DNA of 64,000 nt from Candidatus Zixiibacteriota bacterium (lineage in GTDB: Bacteria > Zixibacteria > MSB-5A5 > GN15 > JACZUZ01). The notes below the pieces were generated by a model. The model was not told where the DNA came from. It did no database searches and saw only the letters and a program-made list of their open reading frames with translations. The DNA lies in contig JAJRPJ010000015.1 of assembly GCA_024280835.1 (NCBI GenBank), forward strand, positions 62,001-126,000, given 5' to 3'. Positions 20,906 through 45,281 of this stretch are shown piece by piece. Position 1 is the stretch's first letter; the number at the start of each line of letters is the position of its first letter. The position numbers were made by a program, and so were the translations under genes.

Positions 20906-21244
20906 ATTGTTTTATCGGAAGAATAGTATGGTGGCATTATCACATCAGACAATAGAAAGCGCAGGTATTTGCATACACGTGCGGCTAGATTTCTAGTGGC
21001 GCGAATTTTGCGTCAGAGTCAGAGCAAAGATATCTTGCCATAAAGCCACAAATTGCTATCTTGCATGGGCCTACAGTAGCGATTACTAGTCTTGACGACT
21101 GGTTTCATTCTAGGTAGGCATTTGGATCCTCACAAATCGAACTATCCTCGCTTTAGGCGAATCAAACAATTACAACGATGGTTAGCAACTGGGGTTGTAT
21201 CTCGCATCAATTACGGTGTAGGAGTTAAAAGGAGCTTTACTATT
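20906..21244. other. 339-base divergent spacer
   Basis: Lies between the acyltransferase gene (leftward) and the LVIVD-type gene (rightward). TTGACG (21091-21096) could be a weak -35 but no good -10 follows. The strong SD AAAAGGAG (21227-21234) ten bases before ATG 21245 fixes the start of the rightward gene, so the longer frame from TTG 21092 is probably untranslated leader. Nothing else was recognised. Confidence 0.4.
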
Positions 21245-23191: not shown

Positions 23192-23234
23192 ACCACGATC
23201 AATCTAGCGTTTTACAATAGCAAAAGAAAGAACA

Positions 23235-23274
23235 GAAGCGGGACACACATTTGAGTGTGTCCCGCTTCTTATTA
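23235..23274. terminator. Strong bidirectional terminator
   Basis: GAAGCGGGACACAC (23235-23248) and GTGTGTCCCGCTTC (23255-23268) form a perfect 14-bp stem with a 6-base loop. T-rich sequence follows on the plus strand (TTATTAT) and on the minus strand (TGTTCTTTCTTTT). It separates two convergent genes and marks the 3' end of the long minus-strand train. Confidence 0.85.
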
Positions 23275-23305: not shown

Positions 23306-25495
23306 CTAGGAACCTGTTGTTCCACAGACAGGCGCGGCGCCTCCGGAGAAGATTCTTGCTATTCCGTAGGTGACATCGCCAATATTGAAGGAATTGTTGC
23401 CGTTGGAGTCGGCTTCATCGGTGCAGACTGGAGCAGGGCCACTTGAGAATATTCTGGCAATGCCAGCTGTTACATCGGCGATGTTGAATGTGCCTGAATG
23501 ATCATAGTCTCCAGCTACTAGACAGCATGAGCAGGGACCAATGCAGGGTTCTAGTACCATGTTTTGGACAGTATTGGAGGTTACCGCTACCGAAGTGATT
23601 GTTGAATCTTGTAGGTCAAGTCCACCTGGTGGGACGAACGAGAGGGCGTAGGTTCCGCTGTTAATAGCAGGGAAAGAATAGAAGCCAGCTCCGTCGGTGG
23701 TGATTGGACCAGCGATTAGTGGCGCTCCTCCAAGTCCTAAGACTCTCACGGAGACATTGACAACTGGTGTTACGACTTGGTCAACTACATTGCCCGTGAG
23801 AGTGAATGTTGGGGTGGGAAGTTGGCCGAGGATGATGTTGATTGTTGTGTCGTTGACTAGAGGTGTGGCTAGCAGGACTGATGAATCGGTTAGAGATAAG
23901 CTTGAATCTGGTCTGAAGAGTAGGTCGTATGTCGCAGGGACAATGAGCGCTGAGTATTGACCTAGGGCATTGGTTTTGTTGCCAGGGAGAAAGACTGTGT
24001 CGCCGCTGAGTGGGTCTTTGGCTGTTAGTCGGATGTTCGCTAGTGGAGCCAAGTTGGAGTCTGTGACAGTTCCACTGAGAAGCAGTGCGCTATCTAGGCT
24101 TATTGCGAGTGTCGTATCTAGTCCAAAAGTTAGTCCTGAGAGTAAGACTGCGGCGAGCTTTCTACTTGCTGGTGGTTCGATTTCTATACTAAACGCTCCG
24201 ACAGGCAGGACTGTGGTGAATGCGCCGAAGGCATCGGTGTGGTCGCCGACTAGGGGAACTGAGATATTTGTCGTGGCGTCTTTGGCGTCGAGGTCGACAT
24301 TGTTTACTGGGGCGCCGCTGAAACTTTGGATAGTACCAGTGACGGTGACACCATTGGCTAATACAATGTTTATGGTCGTGTCGATGTTGAGTTGTATGGG
24401 AGTTAGCCGCACTGGAGCTAGTCCAGTTAGAACAGCGGGCTGGACATCTAGGTTGTAAAGGCCGACAGGCACGATGACTTGGTAGATACCCGAAGCGTCT
24501 ACTTTATCAGATGGCGTAAAGAGAGTTAGGCCTGTTGCTATATCTACTATATCTATGTCGGCTCCGACTACTGGAGATGAGAATTGGTCTTTGGCGGTTC
24601 CAGTTAGGAGTACTCCCGCTTGTAAGAGGAAGTTGAGAGTTATGTCAGAATTGACTATGACACTTTGGCGAAGTTCCGGAACTATCTTATCTGCTAAGAG
24701 AGGAGCGACATTTATGTCATATGTTCCAGGTGGGACAAGAAATGCGAAGTCGCCATTTACATCGGTGTTGTCGCCTGGAGTAACTAATTTTATGCCTGTT
24801 ATGACATCTACTGCGTCAAAATCCGCATCAAAGACAGGAACTGAGCCAGGCCCGAGGACATTACCTGAGATAATTACAGCTCCGAGCATGGTTACGTCGA
24901 TAGTTGTGTTCGTTAGCACTGAGACATCGCGTAGTTCAACAATTATTAGTTGTTCGCCATTGACAGGGCGATAAGTAAGACGATAGAAGGCTGGTGGAAT
25001 TACGACACTGTAGAATCCCGTGCCATCTGTGTTGTCACCTGGTGGAGTTAGGTTGTCTCCTGTGTTTTCGTCTCGAAAGTTGAGGTCTATATCTGGAATT
25101 CCGACGCCAAGAGTGTCACGAACGAAGCCTGAAAGAATACTTCCCGCGGCTAGAGGGATATCGAGAGTTGTGTTTCCTGAGACTGTGATTGGAACTTGGG
25201 TATAGAGCAAGCCTGTTAACGTTGGAGGGTCAAAACGCACTTCATAATCGGCTGCAGGTAGGCCAAAAGGAATATTGTCTATGATGTAGAACCCAGCTCC
25301 ATCTGTCAAAGTGGCGGGTATGCCCAGAGAATTGCCATTGGAGTCAAAGAGTAGTACGTCGACATTTGGGACGGCCATAGCGCTAGGGTTGGTTACTGTG
25401 CCAGAGATTGTGAACTGGGCATTTGCGCTATTTGGCGAAAACACGGCAAGAGCGACTATGATCGCTAGCAGTTGGAATAGGAACCTGTTGTTCAT
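23306..25495 (-). CDS. Secreted protein with seven carboxypeptidase-regulatory-like repeats and dockerin-like C-terminus
   Basis: 729 residues. Signal peptide at 1-26 (FLFQLLAIIVALAVF, cut near ANA-Q). Seven repeats of about 85-90 residues follow, each opening with a SGTVTD-like strand and carrying TPGDNTDxxGxY and VPxGxYxLxxxPP, as in CarboxypepD_reg/transthyretin-like beta-sandwich domains. The C-terminus is a paired dockerin-like module (GDYDHSGTFNIADVTAGIARIF, GNNSFNIGDVTYGIARIF). It is the last gene of the minus-strand train, 101 bases after its paralogue. That paralogue has the same repeats but ends in a type IX sorting domain. Role inferred: a rod-like surface or matrix protein. Confidence 0.8.
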   Translation of the reverse strand: MNNRFLFQLLAIIVALAVFSPNSANAQFTISGTVTNPSAMAVPNVDVLLFDSNGNSLGIPATLTDGAGFYIIDNIPFGLPAADYEVRFDPPTLTGLLYTQVPITVSGNTTLDIPLAAGSILSGFVRDTLGVGIPDIDLNFRDENTGDNLTPPGDNTDGTGFYSVVIPPAFYRLTYRPVNGEQLIIVELRDVSVLTNTTIDVTMLGAVIISGNVLGPGSVPVFDADFDAVDVITGIKLVTPGDNTDVNGDFAFLVPPGTYDINVAPLLADKIVPELRQSVIVNSDITLNFLLQAGVLLTGTAKDQFSSPVVGADIDIVDIATGLTLFTPSDKVDASGIYQVIVPVGLYNLDVQPAVLTGLAPVRLTPIQLNIDTTINIVLANGVTVTGTIQSFSGAPVNNVDLDAKDATTNISVPLVGDHTDAFGAFTTVLPVGAFSIEIEPPASRKLAAVLLSGLTFGLDTTLAISLDSALLLSGTVTDSNLAPLANIRLTAKDPLSGDTVFLPGNKTNALGQYSALIVPATYDLLFRPDSSLSLTDSSVLLATPLVNDTTINIILGQLPTPTFTLTGNVVDQVVTPVVNVSVRVLGLGGAPLIAGPITTDGAGFYSFPAINSGTYALSFVPPGGLDLQDSTITSVAVTSNTVQNMVLEPCIGPCSCCLVAGDYDHSGTFNIADVTAGIARIFSSGPAPVCTDEADSNGNNSFNIGDVTYGIARIFSGGAAPVCGTTGS

Positions 25496-25596
25496 GGCAT
25501 TATCTTTCTAATTGCGTTCTTCTGTTCTATGAGACTTGTATCGGACATTTATAGATTTACCACTGTTATTGTTCGATTACTTTGTATTGCGCTGTC

Positions 25597-27609
25597 TTAA
25601 CGAATGAATAGCATGGTGCGTGTAGTTTCTGAAGTTTCAGTTTGCAATCTATAGAAATAGACACCGCTGGCTACTGGTGATCCATTTGTGTCTGCGCCAT
25701 CCCATGTTGGTGTGTAATAGCCTGGGTCTTGTAAGCCGAAGTCATAGTTTCTGACAGTTTGGCCGAGCACATTGTAAATCGCTAGGGTGACATTTGCCGC
25801 CTTGTTCAAAAGATATGGCATGCGAGTGGCGCTATTGAATGGATTGGGGAAGTTTTGGCGCAAGATGAGGGTCTCAGAGTCGGCTGAACTTGAAGCGCCA
25901 ATGACTAGGGTTAGTGATGTGTCGTTGTTGAACGCTATGCTATCTAGGATTAGAGTATCTCCACCGAGGCCAATTTGAGGGAGCGCAGTGACAGAGTATT
26001 GACCAGATGGGATAGTTACAAGAGCTTGCCCAAAAATGTTTGTGGTGTCATGCGGTAAATATTGTTCGGCGTTTGATTGCGAGTTGTTGAAGCGCAATTT
26101 GTAGTCTGTCTCTGGATCGCCTATTTGATTGAGAATATGGGCGTTGACGATAATTCCTTGCTCAAGCGCAATTGTGCCAAGTGATGAGTCAGCTATGAGA
26201 GTTAGATTGGTGAGGGGTTTTCCAAAGTAGCGGCTGCCACGGGGTGGGGCGATGAGAACGTCGATTGATCCGATGGGCACGGCGGAATTAAAAAAGCCCA
26301 AGCTGTCACTGAATTGTCTCTTGACTGTTAGAGGAATCTGCTCTGGGTATGTCCTAGCTGCGATTTCAATATTGGGTAGACCATTGCCTTGCATGTCGAC
26401 TATGCGACCTGTGACGGTGATACGAGACAGATTATTGAGAGTAAATGAAAGAGCAGTGTCAATTGAGATATTGATATTTCTGATGACAGACTTGTCCAGC
26501 AATTGGCCAAGAGGTGGGTCGGCTTTGAATTCGTATATATCAGGTGGGAGAATAAGAACGGCTAAGCCGTTTGAGTCAGTTTTGTCGTGGGGAGTGAAGA
26601 GACGTACTAAGTCAGATTCGCGTGTGACATCCATGTCTGCGTTTTGCAAAGGGATTCCGTCGATGTCAATTATGGTGGCGTTGACAATTATTCCACTAGT
26701 TAGGGTGACATTGACTACTGTGTCTGCTGATATGGTCACGGAATCAAAAGCGACTGCAACAAGCGGTTGGCCGCGTGGTGGCGCGAATTGCAATGTGTAT
26801 GCACCTGCTGGGGCTATTATTGAATAGTCTCCAAGAGAGTCTGATTTGTTGTTAGTTAATGGAAGTTTGACTCCGTCAATTATGCGCTTCAGCGAGAGTT
26901 GTGTTAGGGGCGCTGGAGAGCCGTTTGTTTCGGTAACAGTTCCAGAGATCGCTATGCCTGAGATGAGCGAGAAGTTGATGACTGTGTCGGATTGGATGGA
27001 GATTGAATCGATTTGTCCAAGTTGGAGGTTTACACCCACTGGTGGTTTGAAGCGCAAGCGATATTTGTCATAGCGTGGGACAACTACCCAGTATTTTCCC
27101 GTTAGGCTGTCGGTTTTTCCAGCTGGTGTGTAAACTCGTCCACCACCCAATGAGTCGACGTCAATATTGACTACACCGAGGAATGGTAGGCCAGTCGAGT
27201 CGGTGACGGTTCCAGTTATGACTACACCTGAATCTAGGACTACAGGAAGTATTATGCCGACTCGTAGATCCAAATTGAAGAATTTTTTACCGACTAAATG
27301 TGATTTGAGTGGAGGGGCAAAGGAGACATGGTAAATATTAGGAGCGACAGTGACGCTGTAGAAGCCATTGATGTCTGTATTGTCGCCTGGGGTGAATATA
27401 CGAAGGTTATCAAAAGCGCGGTCAAAGTCGAGATCGCCTCCAATGACAGGCGCTCCCGCTTTGTCTTTGACGAACCCAGTTAGAGTTGCGGCTTGAGTTG
27501 TCGGAGTGGCTGAAACAACTATACCTGCAGTCATAGCTAACGCTGAAGCCATCGGTCTTAGCGCGTTCTGTATTACTGTAAGTGACAGTCTTTTGATGAC
27601 GTTCTTCAT
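25597..27609 (-). CDS. Secreted protein with six carboxypeptidase-regulatory-like repeats and type IX secretion sorting domain
   Basis: 670 residues. An N-terminal signal is followed by cleavage near TTQAA. Six repeats of ~90 residues carry the same TPGDNTDINGFYSV-type core as the neighbouring gene. The last ~85 residues form a Por/type A sorting domain: LRQNFPNPFNSATRM, then VTLAIYNVLGQTVR, then SGVYFYRLQTETSETTRTMLF. Such domains direct passage through the type IX secretion system and surface attachment. The gene begins 33 bases after the porin gene, so co-transcription is likely. An adhesin or a scaffold for the polysaccharide is a reasonable inference. No enzyme motif is seen. Confidence 0.82.
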   Translation of the reverse strand: MKNVIKRLSLTVIQNALRPMASALAMTAGIVVSATPTTQAATLTGFVKDKAGAPVIGGDLDFDRAFDNLRIFTPGDNTDINGFYSVTVAPNIYHVSFAPPLKSHLVGKKFFNLDLRVGIILPVVLDSGVVITGTVTDSTGLPFLGVVNIDVDSLGGGRVYTPAGKTDSLTGKYWVVVPRYDKYRLRFKPPVGVNLQLGQIDSISIQSDTVINFSLISGIAISGTVTETNGSPAPLTQLSLKRIIDGVKLPLTNNKSDSLGDYSIIAPAGAYTLQFAPPRGQPLVAVAFDSVTISADTVVNVTLTSGIIVNATIIDIDGIPLQNADMDVTRESDLVRLFTPHDKTDSNGLAVLILPPDIYEFKADPPLGQLLDKSVIRNINISIDTALSFTLNNLSRITVTGRIVDMQGNGLPNIEIAARTYPEQIPLTVKRQFSDSLGFFNSAVPIGSIDVLIAPPRGSRYFGKPLTNLTLIADSSLGTIALEQGIIVNAHILNQIGDPETDYKLRFNNSQSNAEQYLPHDTTNIFGQALVTIPSGQYSVTALPQIGLGGDTLILDSIAFNNDTSLTLVIGASSSADSETLILRQNFPNPFNSATRMPYLLNKAANVTLAIYNVLGQTVRNYDFGLQDPGYYTPTWDGADTNGSPVASGVYFYRLQTETSETTRTMLFIR

Positions 27610-27642
27610 GGTTGCTTGGTTTGATTATTATCGCTTTGCGCC

Positions 27643-29490
27643 TTAGAGTGTGACATCTACATTTAGTCTGTTAAGTAGGGCAGTTTCTTGGCGTGGGTCG
27701 AAGGCCAGTCCTGGTTTGAAGACACTGAGTGTATAGCGTAATTGGAAGCGTTCCCAAAACTCAGGTGAGGTGGCGATGACATCTACTCCCCAGCCGAGGT
27801 CAACTGATGAACCATTAGGTCTAGCTGGTGGATTGAGAAGCGCTGTCTTGGCTAAGTCTGGGTCTAGGCGGTGTTGTTTGTAGCTATGGTAGATAGTTTC
27901 CAGAGAGGCTCCATTTTGATGGACTGCGCCGAGGCCTGCCGTCAGAATTTTTATGTTACTCAGTTCAGGGTTGAGGGCTTCGCCATAGTAACGCACCGAT
28001 GAGACACCACCTAGAGTGGCGACATTGTCTTGATAGCCTGTCTGACGGAACTCTTGGCTTTCGGGATCGCCAGAGACTTTGTCTCCAGATCCGATTGCAT
28101 AACCTACAGTGAGACTGGGCTTGACCGCTCCGATATTTACTGGCCTATATGTAGTTCCGAAATCGACGGCCCATGCGCTTTGACTGCGCCCTTTGTCTTC
28201 GCCCCGCATGATGGCGATATCGAACCATGAGCGAAAGGATGGCGCTGGGCGGCCGAAATAGCGCAGGCCCCACCAGATAGGTTCACGGTTGCGGAGGGAT
28301 GTGTCTTTGCGCTTTAGTACGTAGGCATTGGTGACACTGTGTTTGTCGAAGCGCCATCCGACTTGGGCAAAATAGTCAGTCCAGCTATCGAACTTGTCCT
28401 TGATGGGCGAGACAGAGACGATTAACGCCGCTTGGGCAACGAATCCTTCTGTGGCGATGTAGTGGAAGCGGATAGCGTCTAGGTAATCATCGAAAAGCCA
28501 TTCCCGCGGTTCGTCGAAATCTTGACGGCCAACTTGTAGCGCTAAATGCGGATCACCTAGTTTGCGGAAAAGGACATATAACTGTGTGATGTTTAGTTCT
28601 TTTGATTCAGAGAGGACTGCGAGTGAGTCAGTGTCTAGGGCGTAACGCTTTCTCCAGCGAACTTGGGCGAGGCCACTAATGTTTTCTGTTAAGAAAGTTG
28701 TTAGTTCAAGGCGCAAGCCAGGTTGGACATCGCTTCTGTCGGCGCCAAAGTTTTGTTGAAGGTCATATTCAGAGGCGTTCTCCATTTGTCCGCGATATTT
28801 AGCGGTTAAGAGAAGGCCTTTGCCAATGACGACTCCGTCATCTGACAATTCTGCGCCTGAGAGAGCGGCATATTTGAATTGGCGATATTCCAATTTGTCT
28901 AGCTCTCCTCGTGGCCAGTTGATGTCGGTTTTCTCATTGAGGATAATTATTAGGCCGTGTATTATTAGCGTATCTGGAGCAGTTCCATCGACAGATACTT
29001 GAGTTATTGAGCCTTTGATTTTTGAGCTTGTTTTGACATTTTTGGATTTTATTTTGCGGGCTTTCCAACTTCCATCGTCGCGGATGGTGCAGCTGACTTC
29101 AATGTGTTGTCCGACTTTGAGTGAGGCGAGTGTGGTTTGTGTCGGCTCTGGTTCAACAAAACGTGTTGATTTTGTTAGATGTATTGTTCGTCCAAGGATG
29201 GTAAGAGTGTTCTTGGATTTGTTAATACTTTGGATCTGGCCACGCAATTTTGGCGATCTTGGATTGGGAAGTTGCTCGATGTCTTCAGCTATGAAAGCGC
29301 CACTTGTGTCCCAATGCCCTTTCACTTCAAGAGCTATGCCTGCGACATAGTTGAGTCTCATGTACTCGGGGCCACCACGGGCCAAGGCTCTCTCCGGGTT
29401 GACTAGCAGAACGCAGACGAGCGCTATGGCGATGATTATCCAGCCTATTGGAGTGGTTCGGAAGAATTGTCTGTCTATTGATATTTTCAT
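27643..29490 (-). CDS. Outer-membrane AlgE-like export porin with N-terminal DUF5666-like domains
   Basis: 615 residues from ATG 29490, chosen because AAGGATAAGGGA precedes it; an in-frame start exists 11 codons upstream. The signal segment is WIIIAIALVCVLLV, with cleavage near ALA-RG. Residues about 45-190 hold one clear DUF5666-like small beta domain (KLRGQIQSINKSKNTLTILG, LASLKVGQHIEVSC) and a second one (KIKGSITQVSVDG). From about 215 on, alternating strands resemble the alginate-export/AlgE porin family (LELTTFLTENISGLAQVRWR, LQVGRQDFDEPREWLFDD, ending LLNRLNVDVTL). AlgE-type porins carry anionic polysaccharide across the outer membrane. Position downstream of UDP-glucose dehydrogenase and glycosyltransferases supports a uronate-containing product (inference). 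Confidence 0.72.
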   Translation of the reverse strand: MKISIDRQFFRTTPIGWIIIAIALVCVLLVNPERALARGGPEYMRLNYVAGIALEVKGHWDTSGAFIAEDIEQLPNPRSPKLRGQIQSINKSKNTLTILGRTIHLTKSTRFVEPEPTQTTLASLKVGQHIEVSCTIRDDGSWKARKIKSKNVKTSSKIKGSITQVSVDGTAPDTLIIHGLIIILNEKTDINWPRGELDKLEYRQFKYAALSGAELSDDGVVIGKGLLLTAKYRGQMENASEYDLQQNFGADRSDVQPGLRLELTTFLTENISGLAQVRWRKRYALDTDSLAVLSESKELNITQLYVLFRKLGDPHLALQVGRQDFDEPREWLFDDYLDAIRFHYIATEGFVAQAALIVSVSPIKDKFDSWTDYFAQVGWRFDKHSVTNAYVLKRKDTSLRNREPIWWGLRYFGRPAPSFRSWFDIAIMRGEDKGRSQSAWAVDFGTTYRPVNIGAVKPSLTVGYAIGSGDKVSGDPESQEFRQTGYQDNVATLGGVSSVRYYGEALNPELSNIKILTAGLGAVHQNGASLETIYHSYKQHRLDPDLAKTALLNPPARPNGSSVDLGWGVDVIATSPEFWERFQLRYTLSVFKPGLAFDPRQETALLNRLNVDVTL

Positions 29491-29552
29491 TCCCTTATCC
29501 TTTTTTTCATTTCTTTGGAGCAACGGTCTTCTGGTTGCTGAATAGCTTGTTG

Positions 29553-32333
29553 CTAATTACATGTTTGTAATGCTAATAGTTGGCAGGGTAGTCCTGCATG
29601 ACTGTCATCAATTAGTTGTTGGGTTAAATGTCTCCATTTTGGACGAAGCGCATATAGTGTTGCTAGGCGTAGCATTGTTGCTTTATACCACCAGTTTAGT
29701 TGAATCATTGAATCTGATTGATTGGTTGTATTTGAATTCTTTGATTGCTGGTAGTAGCCGTTGATAAAATGTTCTTGAGCTTTAGAGTGTTGTAGTTTGG
29801 ATAGTAGTTCTTGGTTCCCTCTTAGTGTCAAGTGGGCTAGGAAATTGGCAGTATCAAGAAATGGGTCGGCTAGTGACAAGGTATCGAGATCGATTAGTGT
29901 GATCTTGTTGCTCTCTATGAATAATTGTTTGTCGTAGAAATCACGATGGGACAAGGCGGCAGAGTCAGTATTGGTTTTTGGTTGATAATTTTCGAGAGAT
30001 ACGAAGGCCTGTTTTAGTTGTTGGGCGTATTTTGGTGTCAGCAGTGATGTTTGGGCGACTTTTTGCTTGAGCATATCTATTTCTTGCTCGGCGGTGTAGG
30101 TTTTCAAAGGAATATCAATTGGAACGGCTCCTGACTGGAAGTTGCGTAAGAGGACACCAATTTTGTGGCACGCCGATTCAATATGCTTGAAGCTTTCGCT
30201 GGCACTGGGAGCTTTGGAATGTGTTTTGAGCATTGTGTAGAGTGTGGGGGCATTGACGGCCTCAGTAATGATAAGCCCTCGAGCAATATTTGTAAAGAGA
30301 ATATTCGCTAGTGTAAAGTGTTCTTTGTTATTTCCGTGAATAGTCATATTGATGACATCTTGCGCGGCAAGCGCCCGAGCGGTGTAACGTGGCCTTGAGA
30401 GCTTGAGATAGACACTGTTCGATGACAATTGTTTGTTTAAATGACCCTTTATCAGGCCACGCATGACGCAGCGTTTACCTTGACGATATGAGTGAACTTC
30501 TTGGGCTGTGAAGGCCATTTGTGAATCATTGAGAATGAAGTCGGTTGATTTGAACCATAACGGGCCAGAGTGACTTTTGAAGCAATTTGTTAATTCTCGC
30601 AGGTGAGTGTCATGAGGGAAGATGCGAAGTGTCATCTTGAGTTCATTGATATAGTCTGTATTGTTGCCTTGTTGTGTGGGGTCAAGTTCACCGTAGATAA
30701 TGACATTATTTAGTTGTTGCGTAGTCGCATGTTTCAAACTAATGACATATTGAATTAGAGTGGTATCGATAGATTTGACGAAGGCTCGAGGGATTTCTAG
30801 TTCTGCAATTTGGATGTCGAATCCGACAGCTTTCGAGAGATGTGACTGTAGGATTGGTGTCACATAGTCAATGTTGGTGGCTTTGTTGAAGATTGTACTT
30901 TTCTGCGATGGACTTGGCAGGGATGTGTGTTGTAACTCGTTATTGGCTTGCTCTAAGATATTTGAGACAGATGCGCGCCAGTTGGGAGTGCATTTGCGGA
31001 ACGGTGTGACTGCCATGTTGAAGAGTTTGTAGGCTATCCAGAATGAGAGCTCTTGTTTGTCGATGTTTGTGGTGGTGGCGCTTTCATAGAATGTTGTGAG
31101 CGCATCTTCAATTTCTGAGATTGAAGATGTAGCGTTGTCTTCAGGCAATTGGCGGATGTTTGCTATATAATTTGCCAGGTCTGCTAATTGGGGGCCATTT
31201 TTGGCACGATCAAAATCTATTATTCCTATGTGTTCGTCTTGGTAAATTACTTGCCCTGGGTGAAAATCTCCGTGGGTTAGACCGATGTCTATTGTCAACT
31301 TGTCGAGATATTGTATTAGGTTTGAATATATAGTGGAAGCGGTTTCTTGAGCTTCGGGAACTAGACTGCAAATGTATTCAGTGGTTGTGGTTAGCTCTTG
31401 CCTTAGTTGATCGACAAGTTGGTTGTGAGAGATACTTGGAAATATGTTCGCTGTTGTGTTGTGTAATGTGGCTAAGGCTTTTGCGGTTAGTTCGGTATAG
31501 TGGATGATGTCATTATGGGTCGAAAGTTCTTCTAGAGAAATGCCAGGAATGCTGTAAGCTAAGAGCGCTCTGTCTTCTGGGAGGTAACAAATGGGCTGTG
31601 GAGTCAAGAGAGAGTCAGACGAATTGTGTTCAGTCTGTAACGTTTTCAAGCAGTCGATTTGGGTTTGCCCGCGCTCATCGGAATAGAAACGGATGTAAAT
31701 TGAAAGTGGGCGCTTTTCTGCAGTTGAGCGGTTAGTTGCTTTGGTTGCTATGTGCAGGACAGCGCGACGTTCTGGTTTGTAGCTAGCGACAGTTAGATTT
31801 AGTTTTGAATCGGATATTCTCCATGTGACTTTGGGATAGTCGGCTAGATTTTGATAGAGAATACGTTGTAGGCGCTTTGGTGTTGTTAGGGTGCGTAGTC
31901 CTTTTAAGGCTGTGTCATTGGGGAAGCGGTAGAGAATGGCCTTCTCTTGTTCTAACAAATAGGTTGGAGCTGCGGAGTCATGGCTTTCCCAACGTTTTGC
32001 AGATAGTTTGTGGCAAGCGTCTGCGTAATCTGAGTGTGTGAATAGTTTAGCATAGCTACGCTCTTCTATGGTGTCATTGCTAGCTGTAGTGAAAGTTAAG
32101 ATGTAACAGATTAGGCAATTTGTCTGTGGTTTATAACGCACATATTCTATTTCACAAGAAGCAAGGGCGCCAAGCGCAGGTGACAGCCAATTGGAGAAAC
32201 GTTCGCTCATGGCTCTTGTGTCAAAGAGAGTTGTTATGCCTTTGAGGGCATTGTCAGCCGGTGGTCTGGCTCCTGAGAGTGTTTGCACGGTCTTGGTAGC
32301 TACTCTGGCTGTTGTGGTGGATGTTTTCTGCAT
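29553..32333 (-). CDS. Tandem two-domain aminoglycoside-phosphotransferase-like kinase
   Basis: 926 residues from ATG 32333, four bases after the ABC transporter stop. Two APH-type kinase cores are visible. The first has LTHGDFHPGQVIYQ followed by IGIIDFDRA (about residues 350-380). The second has ALSHRDFYDKQLFI followed by ITLIDLDTL (about 810-840). HxDxxxxN/Q and the later Asp are the catalytic loop and Mg-binding residues of this fold; the Asn position is Gln in both halves. APH-type kinases phosphorylate small molecules or sugars. In this operon a sugar or lipid-linked intermediate is more likely than an antibiotic (inference). Its length, about twice a normal APH, shows an internal duplication. 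Confidence 0.7.
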   Translation of the reverse strand: MQKTSTTTARVATKTVQTLSGARPPADNALKGITTLFDTRAMSERFSNWLSPALGALASCEIEYVRYKPQTNCLICYILTFTTASNDTIEERSYAKLFTHSDYADACHKLSAKRWESHDSAAPTYLLEQEKAILYRFPNDTALKGLRTLTTPKRLQRILYQNLADYPKVTWRISDSKLNLTVASYKPERRAVLHIATKATNRSTAEKRPLSIYIRFYSDERGQTQIDCLKTLQTEHNSSDSLLTPQPICYLPEDRALLAYSIPGISLEELSTHNDIIHYTELTAKALATLHNTTANIFPSISHNQLVDQLRQELTTTTEYICSLVPEAQETASTIYSNLIQYLDKLTIDIGLTHGDFHPGQVIYQDEHIGIIDFDRAKNGPQLADLANYIANIRQLPEDNATSSISEIEDALTTFYESATTTNIDKQELSFWIAYKLFNMAVTPFRKCTPNWRASVSNILEQANNELQHTSLPSPSQKSTIFNKATNIDYVTPILQSHLSKAVGFDIQIAELEIPRAFVKSIDTTLIQYVISLKHATTQQLNNVIIYGELDPTQQGNNTDYINELKMTLRIFPHDTHLRELTNCFKSHSGPLWFKSTDFILNDSQMAFTAQEVHSYRQGKRCVMRGLIKGHLNKQLSSNSVYLKLSRPRYTARALAAQDVINMTIHGNNKEHFTLANILFTNIARGLIITEAVNAPTLYTMLKTHSKAPSASESFKHIESACHKIGVLLRNFQSGAVPIDIPLKTYTAEQEIDMLKQKVAQTSLLTPKYAQQLKQAFVSLENYQPKTNTDSAALSHRDFYDKQLFIESNKITLIDLDTLSLADPFLDTANFLAHLTLRGNQELLSKLQHSKAQEHFINGYYQQSKNSNTTNQSDSMIQLNWWYKATMLRLATLYALRPKWRHLTQQLIDDSHAGLPCQLLALQTCN

Positions 32334-32337
32334 GCTT

Positions 32338-34191
32338 TTAGTTCCAGTCCTTGGTGGTAATTGCACTGGATGCAGGTTGTGGCGCTTGTTTGATATATTG
32401 GGCGAATTGGCTGGCGCTGTTTATTAGCGCTTCAGGGTCGCCTTCTTCCACCATAGTTCCATCACGCATAAAGACAATATGATCGGCAAGTTCCAGATAG
32501 CTAAGTCTATGGGTGATGATTATAAAAGTCCGGTCTTGCTTTAGCGATTTTATCGCGTTTAGAACGTCACGTTCGATTTGAATGTCCAAGCCACCAGCGG
32601 GTTCGTCGAGAATCATGATGGGGGTGTCACGGAGCGCGGCCCGAGCGAAACTTATTAATTGTCGTTGGCCTCCTGATAGGGTTGCTCCGCCTTCGCCGAC
32701 TAGAGTTTGGTAGCCATCTGGTAAGTCTGTAATAAAGTCATGGGCGCCAACTTGTTTGGCGGCAGCGATGATCTCATCTTCGGTTGGTCGAGCTTTGCTA
32801 AAGGCTATGTTGTCATAAATAGATGTGCGAAAAAGAAATGTGTCCTGAGTGAGTGGGGTCATTCTTTTGCGCATACTTCTAATCTGAAAGTCGCTGATTG
32901 ATTGTTTGTCGAGGGTAAGGTCGCCAGACAATGGGTTATACAATCGCAGGACTAGTTTGGCGACTGTTGATTTACCAGCCCCATTGGGGCCCACTATGAG
33001 AGTCGTTTTGCCAGCGGGAATATGGCAGGAGAAGTTTTTGAGGGCTTCTTTACGGCTGATATAGGTGAAGGACACATTCTCGAATTTGAACTCTCCCTTG
33101 ATGCCTCTGGCGGTTGTGGCTCCTTCGACGTCTTTGACTTCTGGTTCGATGTCGAATATCTCTAGGATTTTTTCAGCGCGAGTTGTGGCTTTGGCGATTT
33201 TCGTAGTCATGCGAGCTATGCCTTGGATAGGACGATAGACGCCACGTAAGTAGGATAGAAAGACAATCAAGTCGCCTGGCGTCAGGTCGCCGTCGAGAGT
33301 GAAGAGAACTCCGACAAAGAGGGCAATAGCAGAGCCGAGGGCGGTGATTAATTCGACAATGCGGGTGTAGTTCGCTGAGAGTTTTGTGGTTCGCAAGTTG
33401 GCTTTGGCGTCACGGCCTAAGGATTTGCCGACAATCTTTTCGCGCTCTTTTTCACGGCCGAAACCTTTTGTTTGCGAGATGCCCGCCAGTGATTCCTGAA
33501 CTGAAGCCACCATGCTGCCATAGCGTTCGCGTTGTTTGCGTGCGGAGTGTTGGATTTTTCCAGAGAAGCGGAAGGCTGCAAATAGAAAAAGTGGGGCGGT
33601 GGCGACTCCGATAAGAGCCATAGGCCAATTTATCCAAAACATTAGCGCGAGCATACCAGTGATGATGATCAACTGGCTACCGAGGGTGATGAATGTTGAG
33701 ACGAGCAATTCTTTGACGAGCTCCATGTCACCTGTTAGGCGAGTCATTAATTCGCCTGTTTCGCGGTAGTCATGGTATGATTGTGGTAGGCGTTGGATAT
33801 GGGTGAAGAGCCGTAGTCGTATATCTGCGAGCAATTGATGTCCTGCGGCTTTTGATTGTACTTCTTGAGTGTAGGTCATCAAGCTTCGCAAGACGGCGAT
33901 GAGTAAAATTGCGACAGCGCAAATAGAGAGAACGGTGATGGTCTCGAAGTTGTTGAGAAATGAGAGCCATGACGCTTTGGCGCCGTCGCTAGGGATAAGT
34001 ATGAAATCTATGGCGACTTTTAGCGGCCAAGGTCGCGCTAGAGTGAAAAGGGCGGCGCCTGTAGCTGAGAGTCCGCTGATAAGTAACCGACTACGGTTTT
34101 CGCTCAAGGCGCCGCTGAATCTACTGAAGACTGTACGCAGAGCGTCTAGGTCGACAGAATCGAGTCGTGATTTTAGTTTTGCGGTACTCAT
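32338..34191 (-). CDS. ABC exporter, fused membrane and ATPase domains (MsbA type)
   Basis: 617 residues, a half-transporter with six membrane helices (about 40-320) and a C-terminal ATPase. Walker A is VGPNGAGKSTVAK, the Q-loop is TPLTQDTFLF, the signature is LSGGQRQLI, Walker B is IMILDEPAGGLD and the H-loop is IIITHRL. It should work as a homodimer in the inner membrane, flipping a lipid-linked glycan or lipid. It sits between glycosyltransferase and kinase genes (33 and 4 bases), consistent with exporting their product. All catalytic motifs look intact. Confidence 0.9.
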   Translation of the reverse strand: MSTAKLKSRLDSVDLDALRTVFSRFSGALSENRSRLLISGLSATGAALFTLARPWPLKVAIDFILIPSDGAKASWLSFLNNFETITVLSICAVAILLIAVLRSLMTYTQEVQSKAAGHQLLADIRLRLFTHIQRLPQSYHDYRETGELMTRLTGDMELVKELLVSTFITLGSQLIIITGMLALMFWINWPMALIGVATAPLFLFAAFRFSGKIQHSARKQRERYGSMVASVQESLAGISQTKGFGREKEREKIVGKSLGRDAKANLRTTKLSANYTRIVELITALGSAIALFVGVLFTLDGDLTPGDLIVFLSYLRGVYRPIQGIARMTTKIAKATTRAEKILEIFDIEPEVKDVEGATTARGIKGEFKFENVSFTYISRKEALKNFSCHIPAGKTTLIVGPNGAGKSTVAKLVLRLYNPLSGDLTLDKQSISDFQIRSMRKRMTPLTQDTFLFRTSIYDNIAFSKARPTEDEIIAAAKQVGAHDFITDLPDGYQTLVGEGGATLSGGQRQLISFARAALRDTPIMILDEPAGGLDIQIERDVLNAIKSLKQDRTFIIITHRLSYLELADHIVFMRDGTMVEEGDPEALINSASQFAQYIKQAPQPASSAITTKDWN

Positions 34192-34224
34192 AGTATTACT
34201 TACAAGTGTCTAATGCCTGTGTCT

Positions 34225-35535
34225 TTAGATGGCCTCCGCAACACGAGGCGGTTTTGGTAACTCATTGAAGATTTGTAGGATTTGATTCATGCGTGTGTCC
34301 CATGAATGTAGGGCGCGCGCGTTATCATAGGCGGTCGTTGCTAATCGCTTTGCAAGTTGTGGGTCAGCGCTAATAAGCTGCATGGCTTCGACTAGTTCAG
34401 GAATATTCCCTGGCTCGGTTAAGAGAGCGCTTTCTTTGTTTTTGAAGAGTTCTGAAATCTGGCCGATGTCGGAGGCTATGATGGGTTTACCAGAGGCCAT
34501 GTATTCAAAGACTTTTAGCGGGGAAAAGTAGAAATTATCAATCGCTGGATATGGCGCAACTAATGTATCGCAATGTGAAAGATATTCTGGGACATCGGCG
34601 TTGGCGGCCTCGCCTGTGAAGGTTACACTATCTGTGATTCCCAAGTTTTGGCACATCGCCTCTAATTGAGGGCGAACGTTCTTGCCGTCGCCGATGATTA
34701 AGAGATGTGCGTTGGTTGTTTTCTTTGAGAATGTGGCAAAGGCTTCGATGAGATTGTTTAGTCCGTGCCATGGGCGTAGACTTCCAAGATAACCAACAGT
34801 GAAAGCGCCCTCTAAATGGGATAGCGAGGTTGCGATTGTTCTGTCTTCAGAACTTGAGTGGTTGTTTTGTATTTGGCAACGCTGAAAACGAGTTGGGTTG
34901 ACGGCATTGGGCGCTACAGCCACGTTTGCTGTTGGTGAGACGTTGACGATGTAGTTTGCTACTTCTTGTGAGACGGCGATAATCTTGTTGGCATTGGTAA
35001 AGAGGTAGTTGGCAACTGAGTCGGCCAATTCGCGCATGTGAAGATGACGGTGCAAGAGCGCTTCTTCGATTAAGGGCGAGTTAACTTCCAAGACGTAGGG
35101 TAGATTGTGGCTTTTGGCAAAGGCTATACCTGCAAATGAGAATAGAGAATAACGCTCATAGACGAGGCTGAAATTGTTCTTTGCAGATAAATCTGGCAGT
35201 TGCTGAGAGAGAATTGTGTTTGCATAGAAACTGCGAATCTCCTTGGCGAGATCGTCTTTGTCGCAGTTTTTGTCATGACCTTTGTTACGATCTTTGCTAC
35301 ATCGCTCCCAATGGTTTTGAAATGTCTCGCCATAGCGGCGAAACTTGATTTTGTGGACATCGGCTTCAGGCGCTGAACTGTCGGCTGGCTTCGAGCGGGC
35401 AGTGACAATTGTGACTTTGGCCCCGCTTTGAATTGCAGCTTCGGTGAAGTCGCGAATATGCGCAGAGCCGCCTGATTGTCCCCAGACGGGAATGCCGCGG
35501 TCGGCGTTTATATAGAGGATATGCGGATTGTTCAT
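34225..35535 (-). CDS. GT4-family glycosyltransferase (second of the pair)
   Basis: 436 residues with the GT-B fold. The N-terminal GGSAHIRDFTEAAIQSGAKVTIVTAR is an acceptor-domain start. The C-terminal half has VGYLGSLRPWHGLNNLIEAF, LLIIGDGKNVRPQLE, and the donor-binding APYPAIDNFYFSPLKVFEYMASGKPI with the EX7E-type glutamates. An unusual charged insert (KDRNKGHDKNCDKDD) lies near residue 85. The ATG overlaps the preceding stop by one base (TAATG), so the two GT4 genes are coupled. The sugar specificity cannot be told from sequence. Confidence 0.87.
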   Translation of the reverse strand: MNNPHILYINADRGIPVWGQSGGSAHIRDFTEAAIQSGAKVTIVTARSKPADSSAPEADVHKIKFRRYGETFQNHWERCSKDRNKGHDKNCDKDDLAKEIRSFYANTILSQQLPDLSAKNNFSLVYERYSLFSFAGIAFAKSHNLPYVLEVNSPLIEEALLHRHLHMRELADSVANYLFTNANKIIAVSQEVANYIVNVSPTANVAVAPNAVNPTRFQRCQIQNNHSSSEDRTIATSLSHLEGAFTVGYLGSLRPWHGLNNLIEAFATFSKKTTNAHLLIIGDGKNVRPQLEAMCQNLGITDSVTFTGEAANADVPEYLSHCDTLVAPYPAIDNFYFSPLKVFEYMASGKPIIASDIGQISELFKNKESALLTEPGNIPELVEAMQLISADPQLAKRLATTAYDNARALHSWDTRMNQILQIFNELPKPPRVAEAI

Positions 35536-36848
35536 TAGACCAGTCGTTGTTGGGTATGTTTCTGAGCGGATGATTTGTTGTTCGCTGTGCGTTGTTTTTG
35601 AGACTCTGCAAACATTTGTGCTAGGCGAGCTACGTTCTTCCGGATATCAAATTCGCGCTCGGCTTTTTGGCGACATTTAATTGATAGTGAGTCGCGAAGC
35701 GTTTTGTCTTTTAGTAGTAATTCTAGTTTGTCGGCTAAGTCTTCAGTGGCGTCTGGCTCGACAAGGAAACCTTCTTGGCCAGATTCGATTATCTCTGGTA
35801 TACCTGAAAGAATCGTTGAAACCGCAGGAACGCCACATCCAAGGGATTCCAGTAAGGCAGTTGGGAGAGCATCGATATTGTTGTCGGTCGCTGTGGTGCA
35901 AGGTAGACAGGTGAGTGTCGCTTTTTGAATCCAAGACAATGTTTCTTCGCTATGAGCGGGGCCATGCAAGGTGACACTGTCTGTGAGATTCTTTTGTTGT
36001 ATAAGCTGAGCAAGCGTTTCACGTTCTGGGCCGTCACCGATGATTAGGCATTTGAATGTTAGGCCGCGAGTCTTGAGTATTGCGCAGGCATTGATGAGTG
36101 TCGCGAAGCCTTTTTTGGGGACTAGGCGCCCTACTGCGACAATTAGGTTATCTATTGTTTCGGAGTTGTTGGGGGTGAATTTGTTTAGATTTATTCCATT
36201 GTGGAGAACTACGACTTTGTGGTGTAGGTTCTCTGGTATGCGTTCGTCGATGAAGGTTTTGTTGAAATGAGTGACTGTTACGAGTTGAGATGCCGCTGCT
36301 ATTTTTTCTTGCATAAGAGTTTCAGTGAACGGATAGACGTAGATGTCTTTGGCATGGGCGGTTAATGAAAAGTCGATGCCACTGATTGCGCTGGCATAAT
36401 AGGCAAGGGTACTTGGTAGTGTTGCGAAGTGGGCGTGCAGACGATGGATACCTAGTGTGAGAGCTTTTGCGGCGATCCAAGCTCCGAGAAGTACTTGGTC
36501 GGATTTTACGCGATTACATTCGCTTAGCGCTTCATCCATCAAGGTCCATAAGTTCTCTTGCTGATTGCGAATTGGGCTCCAGACTTTGCCGAGCCATGCG
36601 GGCCATTTGCGTAAGTCGAATTCGTCGAGATAAAACACTTGAGCTTTGAGTTGGGCGAGCTGTGGATGGAAGATGCCTTCATTGGGTCGTTTCATTGAAA
36701 AGATAGTCACTTCGACACCGGTGCGCTCTAGTTCCAAGATTTCATTGAGGATAAATGTTTCCGAGAGACGAGGAAACATTTTTACAACATAGCCGACTTT
36801 TAGTTTGTTCTTTGTGCGGTTGTTAGTTGTGTTGTTGTCGTTTGTCAT
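35535..36848 (-). CDS. GT4-family glycosyltransferase (first of the pair)
   Basis: 437 residues. The N-terminal KVGYVVKMFPRLSETFILNEILELERTG is typical of EPS-type GT4 enzymes. Later motifs are LHAHFATLPSTLAYYAS, IVAVGRLVPKKGFATLI, CLIIGDGPERETL, and the donor site PTALLESLGCGVPAVST with its Glu. It retains GT-B architecture and full length. It lies 30 bases after the interrupted MurG-like gene and one base overlaps the next GT4. Probable cytoplasmic sugar transfer to a growing lipid-linked polysaccharide. Confidence 0.88.
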   Translation of the reverse strand: MTNDNNTTNNRTKNKLKVGYVVKMFPRLSETFILNEILELERTGVEVTIFSMKRPNEGIFHPQLAQLKAQVFYLDEFDLRKWPAWLGKVWSPIRNQQENLWTLMDEALSECNRVKSDQVLLGAWIAAKALTLGIHRLHAHFATLPSTLAYYASAISGIDFSLTAHAKDIYVYPFTETLMQEKIAAASQLVTVTHFNKTFIDERIPENLHHKVVVLHNGINLNKFTPNNSETIDNLIVAVGRLVPKKGFATLINACAILKTRGLTFKCLIIGDGPERETLAQLIQQKNLTDSVTLHGPAHSEETLSWIQKATLTCLPCTTATDNNIDALPTALLESLGCGVPAVSTILSGIPEIIESGQEGFLVEPDATEDLADKLELLLKDKTLRDSLSIKCRQKAEREFDIRKNVARLAQMFAESQKQRTANNKSSAQKHTQQRLV

Positions 36849-36878
36849 TTTTGGCTACTTTCTTTAGACCATCAAGCT

Positions 36879-38216
36879 TTAGATGGTCAAGGCCATCAAC
36901 TCACCACAAATTGCGGCGGCGCGTAGACTTCCGTCTAAATCTATTTTATTGCTCTCTCTGAATTGTTGCAGAGGAGAGTTGGAGCGTTTTAACATTTGGG
37001 TTACCAATTCAAATAGTTCATTGGCGGTTGTTTTGTTTGGGTCGAACATTTTCACTGCGCCGATTTCATTTAGGGCTCTAGCGCGGAGGATTTGTTCTTG
37101 ACGCATAGACATTCTGGGAGCCATCAATGTTTGTTTGGCGTATGAGAGCGCATCGACTGCGCTATTGTAACCAGCGGTTGTGATTAGCGCGTCACTACCT
37201 GCGAGCAATTCGGGGATTCTTTCGACCGAGCTGTGAATTGTGACGGGTAGTCCTTCGGCTTGTTGCTTGTATTGACGATACAGATCGGGGTTGAGTAGAG
37301 GTCCAGTGATTAGTACGCTTTCGAAGTTTATATGTGATTGGTGTTCTTTGAGCATTGCTAGATAGGCGCCTATGATTTCGGGGCCGTAGTAGTCTCCGCC
37401 GCCGATGGTGACAATTACTTGGGGCTGTTTCTTGTGAGTTTGATTCGATTGATTGTGAATTGTGCGGGACGTTTCACGCCACAGTTTATCACTGATGTAG
37501 CCGCAGTAATTTGTTTTGGCCATGGTCTCATTTGGGATGTCATATAGTTTGGCGGTGGAGATTAAACGTGGGTCGCCGTAGATTAGAATCTTGTCATAAG
37601 TGTTTTGGAGGACGGAATAGATATCGTCTTGGGTCCAGCGGCGCTGGATGATTTGATAGTCGTCGATAATGTCGCGCATTCCGTAGGCGAGTTTGGTTGT
37701 GCTCTGGTTGTCTTTTATCCATTCGAATGTTGGTAGCAGTTCGCCGCACATTCCGAGTGGGGCATGGTCGACGAGTAGGAGATGGGGTTCAAACGTTTTG
37801 ATTACGCCTAAGAGTATTTCTGAGCGGATGGCGACGATGCGTTTGATGTCGTCGGGTAGAAATCGGGCTGTGTAATTGTCGTTATCTAGTTTTTTGACTG
37901 AAGGTAGTTTGATAACGTCAATTTTTGCGGTGGCTGTGTTTGAGGCCGAAAGTTGGTTGGTGACTCAGCCTACGTCGGGTGAGCCGCTGATTATTAGGGC
38001 TGATATTTCAGGGAATAGTGAAGTTACTTCTCTGGCTATTTTGAGAGTGCGTCTGAGGTGGCCTAGGCCCAGAGTGTCATGCGAATAGAAGGCGATACGT
38101 TTGCCTTTACCTGACGAACGAGTTTTGCCTGAGGAAACGATATCCTCTATGCTTTTGAGGTTTAGCACAGGGGAGAGTGTCTCTGTGTGTTGTGATTTGT
38201 CGATTTTGGTTTGCAT
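36879..38216 (-). pseudogene. MurG/GT28-like glycosyltransferase interrupted by an in-frame TGA
   Basis: The minus-strand frame opens at ATG 38216 with KRIAFYSHDTLGLGHLRRTLKIA, a start typical of predicted glycosyltransferases of the COG4671/MurG-like kind. It meets TGA at 37965-37967 after ISGSPDVG. The same frame then continues without another stop through IDVIKLPSVKKLDNDNYTARFLP to 36879. The C-terminal half has VIVTIGGGDYYGPEI and ITTAGYNSAVDALSYAKQTLM, the GT28-like donor-binding region. The full reading would be about 445 residues. A single substitution (for example CGA or TGG to TGA) explains the break. The downstream piece alone has an in-frame ATG at 37751 but would lack the acceptor domain. 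The flanking operon genes are intact. Confidence 0.75.
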
Positions 38217-38243
38217 GATATTTCAGTGCGCAATTAGCTGGCG

Positions 38244-39653
38244 CTATATTTGCCCGACTCCGACGTACTTGTAGCCATGTCGACGTAGTAGCTCTGGTGG
38301 CAGAAGGTTGCGCGCGTCGAGAATATTCTTGTTGTTCATCAGTGCTCCAAGGCCGCCCCAGTCGATTAATTGAAACTCTTGCCATTCGGTTAGTAGGAGT
38401 AAGCAATCCGCTTTTGCGAAGACTTCATCGCTAGTGTTTACGATTTCAAGTTCTTGCGGCAAAGAGTCGCCTTTTTCTTTGACGATTGGATCGAAGGCGC
38501 GTACTTTTGCGCCTCTTTTTAGAAGATCAGCGATGATTGGTATTGTTGGTGAATTGCGCATGTCGCTGGTTTCGGCCTTGAAAGCCAGTCCAAGGACGCC
38601 AACAGTCTTGCCTTGTAGATTCTCTAGCATCGCTTCAGCCTTATCTACTATGCGTGTGTGTTGGCGTAAATTTGCGTTCTTGACCGCTTCGGCTATGAGC
38701 ATGTCTTGCGCAGGGGCGTCAGACATACCGATGTACTCTTGGAGGTCTTTGGGAAGGCATGAGCCACCCCAGCCTGGCCCAGGGTTGAGAAACTCGGGGC
38801 CGATTCGACTGTCCATGCCCATCCCGCGTACGACTTCCATGACGTTGACTTTTACCGAATCGCAAAGTCCTGCGAGTTCGTTAGCGAAACCAATTTTTGT
38901 GGCGAGGTAGGCATTGGAGGCGTATTTAATCATTTCTGCGGTTTCATTGGTGGTTACTACAAATGGCGCGGGGTGGAGCATGCCTAGTTTGTGGATGTGG
39001 GTAACTACTTCGATGGCTTTTGAATCAGAGCCGCCGATAACTACGCGCTCGGGATGGAAGAAGTCATAGACGGCGCTGCCTTCGCGCAAGAACTCTGGAT
39101 TACTGATTACTGCTGGTGGTTTGGCGCCGTTGCTGTTCTTTTTGAGGCGCGCTTTGAGAATAGCGCTAATCTTTTGAGCGGATCCTACAGGGACTGTGCT
39201 CTTGATGATGACTATTTGCTCACCAGTTAGTACAGGCGCCAGAGTTTGTGCGACTGCATTGAGGGCGGTTAGGTCAGTTCTTCCTGATTTTGAAGCTGGT
39301 GTGCCGACAGCGACGAAGATAGCCTGCTGGCCTCTGACTGCTTCGGTGAGATTGTCACTGAAGGTTAGTTTGCCGCTTTTGATATGTCGACTGATTAGCT
39401 CCGCTAGTTCTGGCTCATAGAAAGGTGTTTTTCCGTCGAGGAGCAATCGCAGTCGTTTTGCATCTTTTTCAATACAGACAACCGAATGACCAAATTCAGC
39501 AAAGCCTGCCGCAGACACCAACCCAACAAAGCCAGCGCCGATGATGGCGATATTAACTCCAGGTAGTAGGGGAGTGTTTGAGCTTGGCCCAGATGCTACT
39601 ATTGTAGCGTCGTCGACTTTGCCCTTGGATGTCGTTTCGCGAGCTGACTTCAT
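38244..39653 (-). CDS. ugd: UDP-glucose 6-dehydrogenase family enzyme
   Basis: 469 residues. The N-terminal Rossmann motif is NIAIIGAGFVGLVSAAGFAE. Family signatures follow: TPFYEPELAEL, FVAVGTPASKSGRTDL, IIKSTVPVGS, SNPEFLREGSAVYDFF, and the catalytic Cys in GGSCLPKD. The enzyme oxidises UDP-glucose to UDP-glucuronate with NAD+. GDP-mannose dehydrogenase is a close relative and cannot be fully excluded, especially with an AlgE-like porin in the operon. An N-terminal extension of about 30 Ser/Thr-rich residues precedes the Rossmann fold. It is the first gene of the long minus-strand train, 158 bases after the response regulator. Confidence 0.88.
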   Translation of the reverse strand: MKSARETTSKGKVDDATIVASGPSSNTPLLPGVNIAIIGAGFVGLVSAAGFAEFGHSVVCIEKDAKRLRLLLDGKTPFYEPELAELISRHIKSGKLTFSDNLTEAVRGQQAIFVAVGTPASKSGRTDLTALNAVAQTLAPVLTGEQIVIIKSTVPVGSAQKISAILKARLKKNSNGAKPPAVISNPEFLREGSAVYDFFHPERVVIGGSDSKAIEVVTHIHKLGMLHPAPFVVTTNETAEMIKYASNAYLATKIGFANELAGLCDSVKVNVMEVVRGMGMDSRIGPEFLNPGPGWGGSCLPKDLQEYIGMSDAPAQDMLIAEAVKNANLRQHTRIVDKAEAMLENLQGKTVGVLGLAFKAETSDMRNSPTIPIIADLLKRGAKVRAFDPIVKEKGDSLPQELEIVNTSDEVFAKADCLLLLTEWQEFQLIDWGGLGALMNNKNILDARNLLPPELLRRHGYKYVGVGQI

Positions 39654-39724
39654 TTTCTATTGTGTCCTTCGTTTACTTTGAACTGAATTGATATTGGGCT
39701 CGTGTTTGTTAAGCTTGTGTCATC

Positions 39725-39778
39725 TTTGAAGTTTGTCGGTGAGAGGTTATTCCTTCTATTGATGAAGACAACTTCAAA
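39725..39778. promoter_or_regulatory. Long inverted repeat between the regulator gene and ugd
   Basis: TTTGAAGTTTGTC (39725-39737) and GACAACTTCAAA (39767-39778) are inverted copies differing by one T, with a 29-base spacer. They lie in the only sizeable gap of the minus-strand cluster. They may be paired operator/enhancer half-sites or an RNA stem ahead of ugd. No U tract follows. I found no -24/-12 (GG-N10-GC) sigma-54 promoter in this gap. Confidence 0.35.
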
Positions 39779-39811
39779 CTGGAAATATTCTTCCTATGTG
39801 CAATGTTCTAT

Positions 39812-44001: not shown

Positions 44002-44184
44002 ATGGCGCTGGATGTTTTTGGTGAGTTTAACGCTTCTACGCGTAACTTGATTGAACACAAAGGTGTTTCTATGTGCATGGAGCTAGAGTATCTTGGCGAG
44101 CCACGAGTTCTTGAGCTGCAATACTCATTTGGTGACGTTAAGGGTGGTGTGCAAGATATAGTTGATGCGCTTTTGGGCAGCTAG
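44002..44184 (+). CDS. Small protein of unknown function behind palindromic operators
   Basis: 60 residues from ATG 44002, preceded by TTGGAG seven bases upstream. A longer frame runs from TTG 43885, but it would place the palindromes inside the coding region and its early part looks random. The product is acidic, with MALDVFGEFNASTRNLIEHKG, a strand-like MCMELEYLGEPRVLELQYSF, and a terminal helix. I recognise no family. Its TAG and the TAG of the convergent nuclease gene share one CTAG (44181-44184). Tight convergence and the upstream palindromes argue for a real gene; shortness argues for caution. Confidence 0.4.
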   Translation: MALDVFGEFNASTRNLIEHKGVSMCMELEYLGEPRVLELQYSFGDVKGGVQDIVDALLGS

Positions 44185-44981: not shown

Positions 44982-45281
44982 AAGGCTCTCCAAATAGCGG
45001 CATCCATTTTGAGATGATGGAGGGCACCAAGGTTATATAGTACCTGACAAACTCTTATCTCTGACCAAGAGATGTCAGCGTCATTATGCCACAATCTAAC
45101 GCTTTGAGTGCAGAGGTCAAGATGCTATGTGAAGATAAAAGCTCTGTACCAGCGATTGTGAACCACTGAATTTAAGCAACGTGACCTCACAACCTGAATA
45201 TTTCATTCATAAAGGAAGACGTAATAGGCCGATGCTTTGACGCAGAAATATACGCTTGTTAACTAGAGTACTGTCTTAATA

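Follow-up and report, generated by a model that had tools for sequence, protein, structure and literature searches.

A conserved gene block for predicted glycan synthesis and export, with an MsbA-like exporter and an AlgE-like barrel, in Zixiibacteriota and on Escherichia coli plasmids

Descriptions of polysaccharide export in Gram-negative bacteria distinguish a handful of pathways, each relying on an outer-membrane partner of its own. Which of them, if any, is encoded by a train of nine minus-strand genes (positions 39653 to 23306, intergenic gaps from −29 to +101 bases) in a 64,000-nt stretch of a Candidatus Zixiibacteriota metagenome-assembled genome (MAG; GCA_024280835.1, contig JAJRPJ010000015.1, positions 62,001–126,000, forward strand)? 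The whole stretch is called the window below. The first-pass annotation, made from the sequence alone, correctly delimited the nine closely spaced genes and proposed that an MsbA-type exporter, an AlgE-like barrel and a dedicated kinase act together in them. This idea is strengthened here, as these genes are also kept together in other, very distant bacteria, from uncultured sediment lineages of several phyla to E. coli with its plasmids. The train is part of a longer block that is very probably a conserved functional module and, judged by its genes, fits none of the established routes of polysaccharide export. We lean towards reading the operon as a self-contained route for an acidic glycan, covering both its synthesis and its export via an ABC flippase and an AlgE-type channel.

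Carriers in Zixiibacteriota were identified by a profile of the GT28 glycosyltransferase, which was found in 17 of 118 genomes of the phylum. In each carrier with a long enough contig the genes follow in the order histidine kinase, NtrC-type regulator, ugd, GT28, two GT4 glycosyltransferases (GT4a and GT4b), ABC exporter, two APH kinases and barrel. The full block was observed in 12 genomes with sufficient contigs, and no counter-examples were met among the 17 carriers; ugd is out of place in two of them (G038 and G046). In the relatives the APH genes are separate and number two or three, and the Zixiibacteriota loci often contain an epimerase gene upstream and two repeat-protein genes downstream. 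The epimerase gene adjoins the histidine kinase–NtrC pair in relatives, in some of them inverted. Since these three genes are conserved together with the train, the true unit in the window comprises 12 minus-strand genes (43710–23306) and begins earlier than the first-pass annotation had placed it. That annotation suggested looking for conserved gene order in relatives and held that separate transcripts together with the lack of a conserved neighbourhood, or adjacent Wzy/Wza partners, would speak against its proposal. The order was found in the 17 carriers as far as their contigs allow, and no gene for Wza or another outer-membrane polysaccharide export (OPX) protein is adjacent in 20 carriers.

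The module is also present on the E. coli plasmid p1RM9088, in the order GT28–GT4–GT4–ABC–APH–APH–barrel–ugd, and all eight proteins match the corresponding Zixiibacteriota profiles (for example, 1.5e-147 for the ABC exporter and 2.3e-36 for the barrel). Of the 5,426 complete E. coli genomes, 18 carry near-identical copies, in every case on plasmids and never on a chromosome. When 72,556 plasmids were searched for relatives of the E. coli barrel, 14 records were obtained, all from Escherichia or Manganitrophus, and the checked ones carry module genes. The version on Ca. Manganitrophus plasmids, with ABC and barrel proteins matching the profiles, contains heparinase II/III, radical SAM and phosphatase genes. 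For other loci outside Zixiibacteriota, the phylum label is that of the genome around which the respective set was drawn. GT28 was found in 13 of 198 genomes in the phylum of a Nitrospirae MAG, in 7 of 189 in that of a Myxococcales MAG, and in 24 of 299 in that of Paraglaciecola. Complete or near-complete versions are L176–L179, L181–L183 and L143. The Nitrospirota, Myxococcota-related and proteobacterial loci share the core, many of them with NtrC and histidine kinase genes. Most proteobacterial GT28 matches come from another kind of cluster, in which no barrel was matched. The pairwise distances of the module proteins correlate (r from 0.47 to 0.89, highest for GT4a–ABC), as expected for parts inherited together; a common species history would also raise r.

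The Nitrospirota and Manganitrophus versions of the module and some further ones have heparinase II/III genes within them, and others have ugd; both point to uronates. A full copy on conjugative plasmids of the genetically tractable E. coli makes the question of function directly testable. The 18 plasmid-carrying genomes come mostly from cattle and food sources, and a complete module (L061:8328–18506) lies on a conjugative plasmid of an E. coli strain isolated from a crow. In the Manganitrophus plasmid loci L063 and L064 the glycosyltransferase and APH genes are split into several short open reading frames; the loci additionally hold radical SAM/SPASM and histidine phosphatase genes.

In the window the block (all features on the minus strand) starts with a gene for an NAD-dependent sugar epimerase/dehydratase (42727–43710; Epimerase family, E 4.8e-65) that scores below the thresholds of the GalE, LegB and TviC models. 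It is followed by genes for a HAMP-type sensor histidine kinase (41242–42720; HAMP, HisKA, HATPase_c) and an NtrC-family sigma-54-dependent response regulator (39812–41224; Response_reg, Sigma54_activat, HTH_8), both conserved in position. The regulator carries the sigma-54 contact motif GSFSGA. The gap before ugd (39654–39811) is the site of a sigma-54 promoter in relatives: seven of them have a strong site about 30–130 bases before ugd or GT28, with scores of 15.7 in L086 (the maximum, a perfect consensus match), 15.2 in L087, 14.8 in L088, 14.2 in L046 and 14.1 in L047. A clear site was not placed with confidence in the window, in the MAG of the same genus (L004) or in E. coli.

The train itself starts with ugd (38244–39653), encoding an enzyme of the UDP-glucose 6-dehydrogenase type (NDP-sugDHase, E 9e-125; TuaD-like, E 1.7e-124). 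Then follow a MurG-like GT28 gene (36879–38216; Glyco_tran_28_C), which is interrupted, and two GT4 genes, GT4a being EpsE/WcaL-like (35535–36848) and GT4b located at 34225–35535. Next are an MsbA-like ABC exporter (32338–34191), two fused APH-fold kinases (29553–32366; two APH stretches) and an AlgE-like outer-membrane barrel with an N-terminal DUF5666 region (27643–29523; Alginate_exp, E 2.1e-24; DUF5666, E 1.5e-16). The last two genes encode repeat proteins, one with a type A sorting tail of the type IX secretion system (T9SS) (25597–27609; CarboxypepD_reg, FlgD_ig, Por_Secre_tail), the other with five CarboxypepD_reg stretches and a dockerin-like C-terminal tail recognized from the sequence (23306–25495). 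The unit ends with an intrinsic terminator hairpin followed by a U-rich tract (23228–23269; −35.1 kcal/mol, z = −9.7). The families named by the first-pass annotation were confirmed (as UGD, GT28 C-terminal, two GT4, ABC, two APH, DUF5666 with Alginate_exp, and, for the two repeat proteins, CarboxypepD_reg), and so was its strong terminator.

The exporter is a half-transporter with the membrane and ATPase domains fused (ABC_membrane and ABC_tran in one protein), whereas a Wzm/Wzt system has a separate ATPase and a separate permease of the ABC-2 type. In fold and domain order it resembles the MsbA, PglK and HepA flippases, but it stays below all their equivalog cut-offs and its partners differ. 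Its score to MsbA_lipidA is 376 bits, the cut-off being 602 bits, and four paralogues elsewhere in the source genome score higher on MsbA, none of them over the cut-off. For these reasons the exporter of the train is probably not the lipid A flippase. As for the kinases, the catalytic set H-D-Q-DxD-D, with Q at the usual N position, is present in both copies across phyla, and among 16 sequences of the APH family H353, D355, D372, D374 and D384 are invariant and Q360 nearly so. Both copies are probably active kinases. The double kinase noted earlier does have two domains, but their fusion is found only in the window among the loci read; in L004 these are separate overlapping genes.

A barrel profile built from four bacterial groups had AlgE structures as its only notable matches (E 7e-33), which covered most of the barrel; a search of solved structures with a single sequence gave no match. 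By this profile comparison and the Alginate_exp match the barrel is homologous to AlgE, and the unit thus has the AlgE-family barrel typical of synthase-dependent (alginate-type) export. The barrels of E. coli and Nitrospirota lack the DUF5666 part, which is an addition to the barrel in Zixiibacteriota. Beside the Myxococcota-related modules DUF5666 occurs within a sensor kinase (L181:3020–5383, L182:1033–3282), and beside a proteobacterial module, as a separate protein (L143:318–1853). It may sense or bind the glycan product. The domain thereby gains a functional setting, in the barrel, the sensor kinase or a separate protein depending on the phylum.

As in alginate export of Pseudomonas aeruginosa, the barrel is of the AlgE family, uronate would be supplied by a nucleotide-sugar dehydrogenase, and some module versions contain a uronate-lyase-type heparinase. 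Unlike in alginate export, the train has no Alg8/Alg44 synthase and no AlgK, AlgX or AlgG, and it contains an ABC exporter with GT28 and GT4 enzymes. Statements of absence for the source genome are limited to the families searched for. A processive GT2 synthase of the Alg8/BcsA type was found neither in the nine genes nor in the E. coli annotation, and no AlgK-type tetratricopeptide repeat (TPR) scaffold was found in the train; genome-wide searches were made for neither. The absence of Wzx, Wzy, Wza, Wzc and a synthase from the train, already remarked by the first-pass annotation, was confirmed; for Wzx flippases and Wzy polymerases only the train proteins were searched, not the genome. The genes suggest a likeness to capsule and O-antigen export by Wzm/Wzt–KpsE/KpsD in that synthesis would take place in the cytoplasm and an ABC transporter would then move the glycan. 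The differences are the fused MsbA-type half-transporter, the lack of an OPX gene near the module and the lack of a polysaccharide co-polymerase (PCP) gene in the train.

In Myxococcus xanthus, an AlgE-like barrel, EpsX, works with a short OPX protein, EpsY, in a Wzx/Wzy pathway (PMC9601211). The module likewise has an AlgE-like barrel outside a synthase pathway; unlike EpsX/EpsY, it has no nearby OPX gene, and the train has neither Wzx nor Wzy. In 20 carriers no short OPX gene was found coupled to that of the barrel. Two other clusters were rejected as the same system. The alphaproteobacterial GT28–GT4–GT4–phosphatase–deacetylase clusters encode GT28 and GT4 enzymes that are related to those of the module and identically ordered, but they are a different set, with a second GT28 and a deacetylase and without a matched AlgE-like barrel or APH pair. 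The sfz cluster for stalk formation in Zetaproteobacteria consists of different genes (BcsB-like, GT2) (PMC8250860). No description of the module was found in the open-access text of PubMed Central. The Geobacter xap cluster was a further candidate for comparison; the text consulted names, of its genes, only the one for an ABC ATPase.

From the gene families we infer the nature of the glycan, the steps of its synthesis and export, and their order. The kinase/NtrC pair would turn on the sigma-54 promoter before ugd, and Ugd with the epimerase would provide UDP-uronate. GT28 would place the first sugar on a membrane lipid, the two GT4 enzymes would lengthen the chain, and the two APH kinases would phosphorylate the glycan or one of its sugars. 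The MsbA-like exporter would then flip the lipid-linked glycan over the inner membrane, and the AlgE-like barrel would let it through the outer membrane. In Zixiibacteriota only, T9SS-exported repeat proteins would bind or display the glycan. Neither these surface proteins, suggested earlier as possible anchors, nor the DUF5666 part of the barrel is supported as essential to the system: both are Zixiibacteriota additions, and no repeat proteins were seen in the versions from E. coli and Nitrospirota. More tentatively, the module could represent a further, unnamed export route, represented in at least four phyla and with E. coli plasmids among its carriers. In such a route a lipid-linked acidic glycan, phosphorylated by APH kinases and flipped by an MsbA-type exporter, would be released directly through an AlgE-type channel without synthase, Wzy, PCP or OPX, under sigma-54 two-component control and with DUF5666 as a glycan sensor. 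If true, this adds an export route, or shows that AlgE-type channels take substrate from flippases.

Several observations weigh against the self-contained pathway. The module has no polymerase, no AlgK-type TPR periplasmic conduit and no lipid-priming enzyme. The priming transferase gene of the source genome lies away from the module, and the matches to PF02563 (OPX) sit on contigs other than that of the module, so that parts encoded elsewhere could act in trans. Homology to AlgE is no proof of polysaccharide export, and such barrels could import solutes; a barrel structure predicted by AlphaFold from two sequences had a confidence (pLDDT) of 31 and was not used. In the window, the gap before ugd scores at best 10.7 of 15.7 for sigma-54, a poor match, and the operon in the source genome may be inactive owing to this weak promoter and the TGA codon in GT28.

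The strongest alternative, which we nevertheless consider unlikely, is a modification of glycolipid or lipopolysaccharide, in which a phosphorylated glycolipid, built by the GT28 and GT4 enzymes and the kinases and flipped by the MsbA-like exporter, stays in the envelope, and the barrel serves separately for solute passage or glycan uptake. The exporter is indeed of the MsbA rather than the Wzm/Wzt type, and the train has no polymerase; moreover, lipid glycosyltransferases are known among GT28 enzymes, and small sugars are frequent substrates of APH-fold kinases. However, the barrel accompanies the module from phylum to phylum and is related specifically to AlgE, and the heparinase II/III genes of several versions point to a polymer.

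Quite improbable is an ordinary Wzx/Wzy or OPX-dependent pathway in which the train is a sub-cluster and the priming transferase, OPX and polymerase come from other loci. The location of the OPX and priming transferase genes elsewhere in the source genome fits it, as does the partnership of AlgE-like barrels with OPX proteins in Myxococcus (EpsX, PMC9601211). Against it, none of 20 carriers has an OPX/Wza gene closer than about 35 kb to the module (the nearest is at about 37 kb), and no OPX, Wzx or Wzy is annotated in the displayed region of the E. coli plasmid version. Least probable of all is protein glycosylation, in which surface proteins exported by the T9SS, in the window the two repeat proteins, would receive the flipped glycan: the operon encodes a T9SS-tailed repeat protein, a SprA homologue is encoded elsewhere in the source genome and the exporter distantly resembles the PglK family, but no oligosaccharyltransferase was found in the module, and this cannot be the common function because the E. 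coli and Nitrospirota versions show no repeat proteins.

The family of the MurG-like gene had been recognized correctly, but an in-frame TGA at its codon 84 (37967–37965) had been overlooked. The corresponding codon in L004 is TTG (Leu), in an intact gene of 440 aa. The read-through frame is 66% identical to the L004 protein overall. Since the sequence past the stop is still 63% identical and retains the motifs, the TGA is either a recent nonsense mutation or an assembly error.

The composition of the train had been called unusual. The mean coding GC skew is −0.19 for the train, −0.11 for other minus-strand genes of the window and +0.12 for plus-strand genes; in its coding strand the train is rich in C and A, a bias common to the remaining minus-strand genes. 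Its skew somewhat exceeds that of the neighbouring genes (p = 0.03), so that strand position accounts for most of the composition of the train, perhaps not for all of it. Horizontal acquisition was rejected as an explanation: composition gives no sign of foreign origin, because strand skew dominates and the operon copy in L004 has the opposite bias.

Several minor observations concern the surroundings of the module. The dockerin-like C-terminal tail is common to the neighbouring surface proteins encoded at 23306–25495 and 21092–23191 on opposite strands, and the L004 homologue of the former also has it; the tail may serve, in this lineage specifically, as a tag for anchoring or sorting. Upstream of the operon, a gene of lower GC content (44181–44993) encodes a lone HSDR_N-like protein of 270 aa. 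A Tubulin_2 family protein of 920 aa is encoded downstream of the module in G009 (L048:5330–8089). The source genome also has a second glycan locus (L058; G000:C13:180000–199999) with heparinase II/III, asparagine synthase, GT2 and GT4-like genes and a distant relative of ugd.

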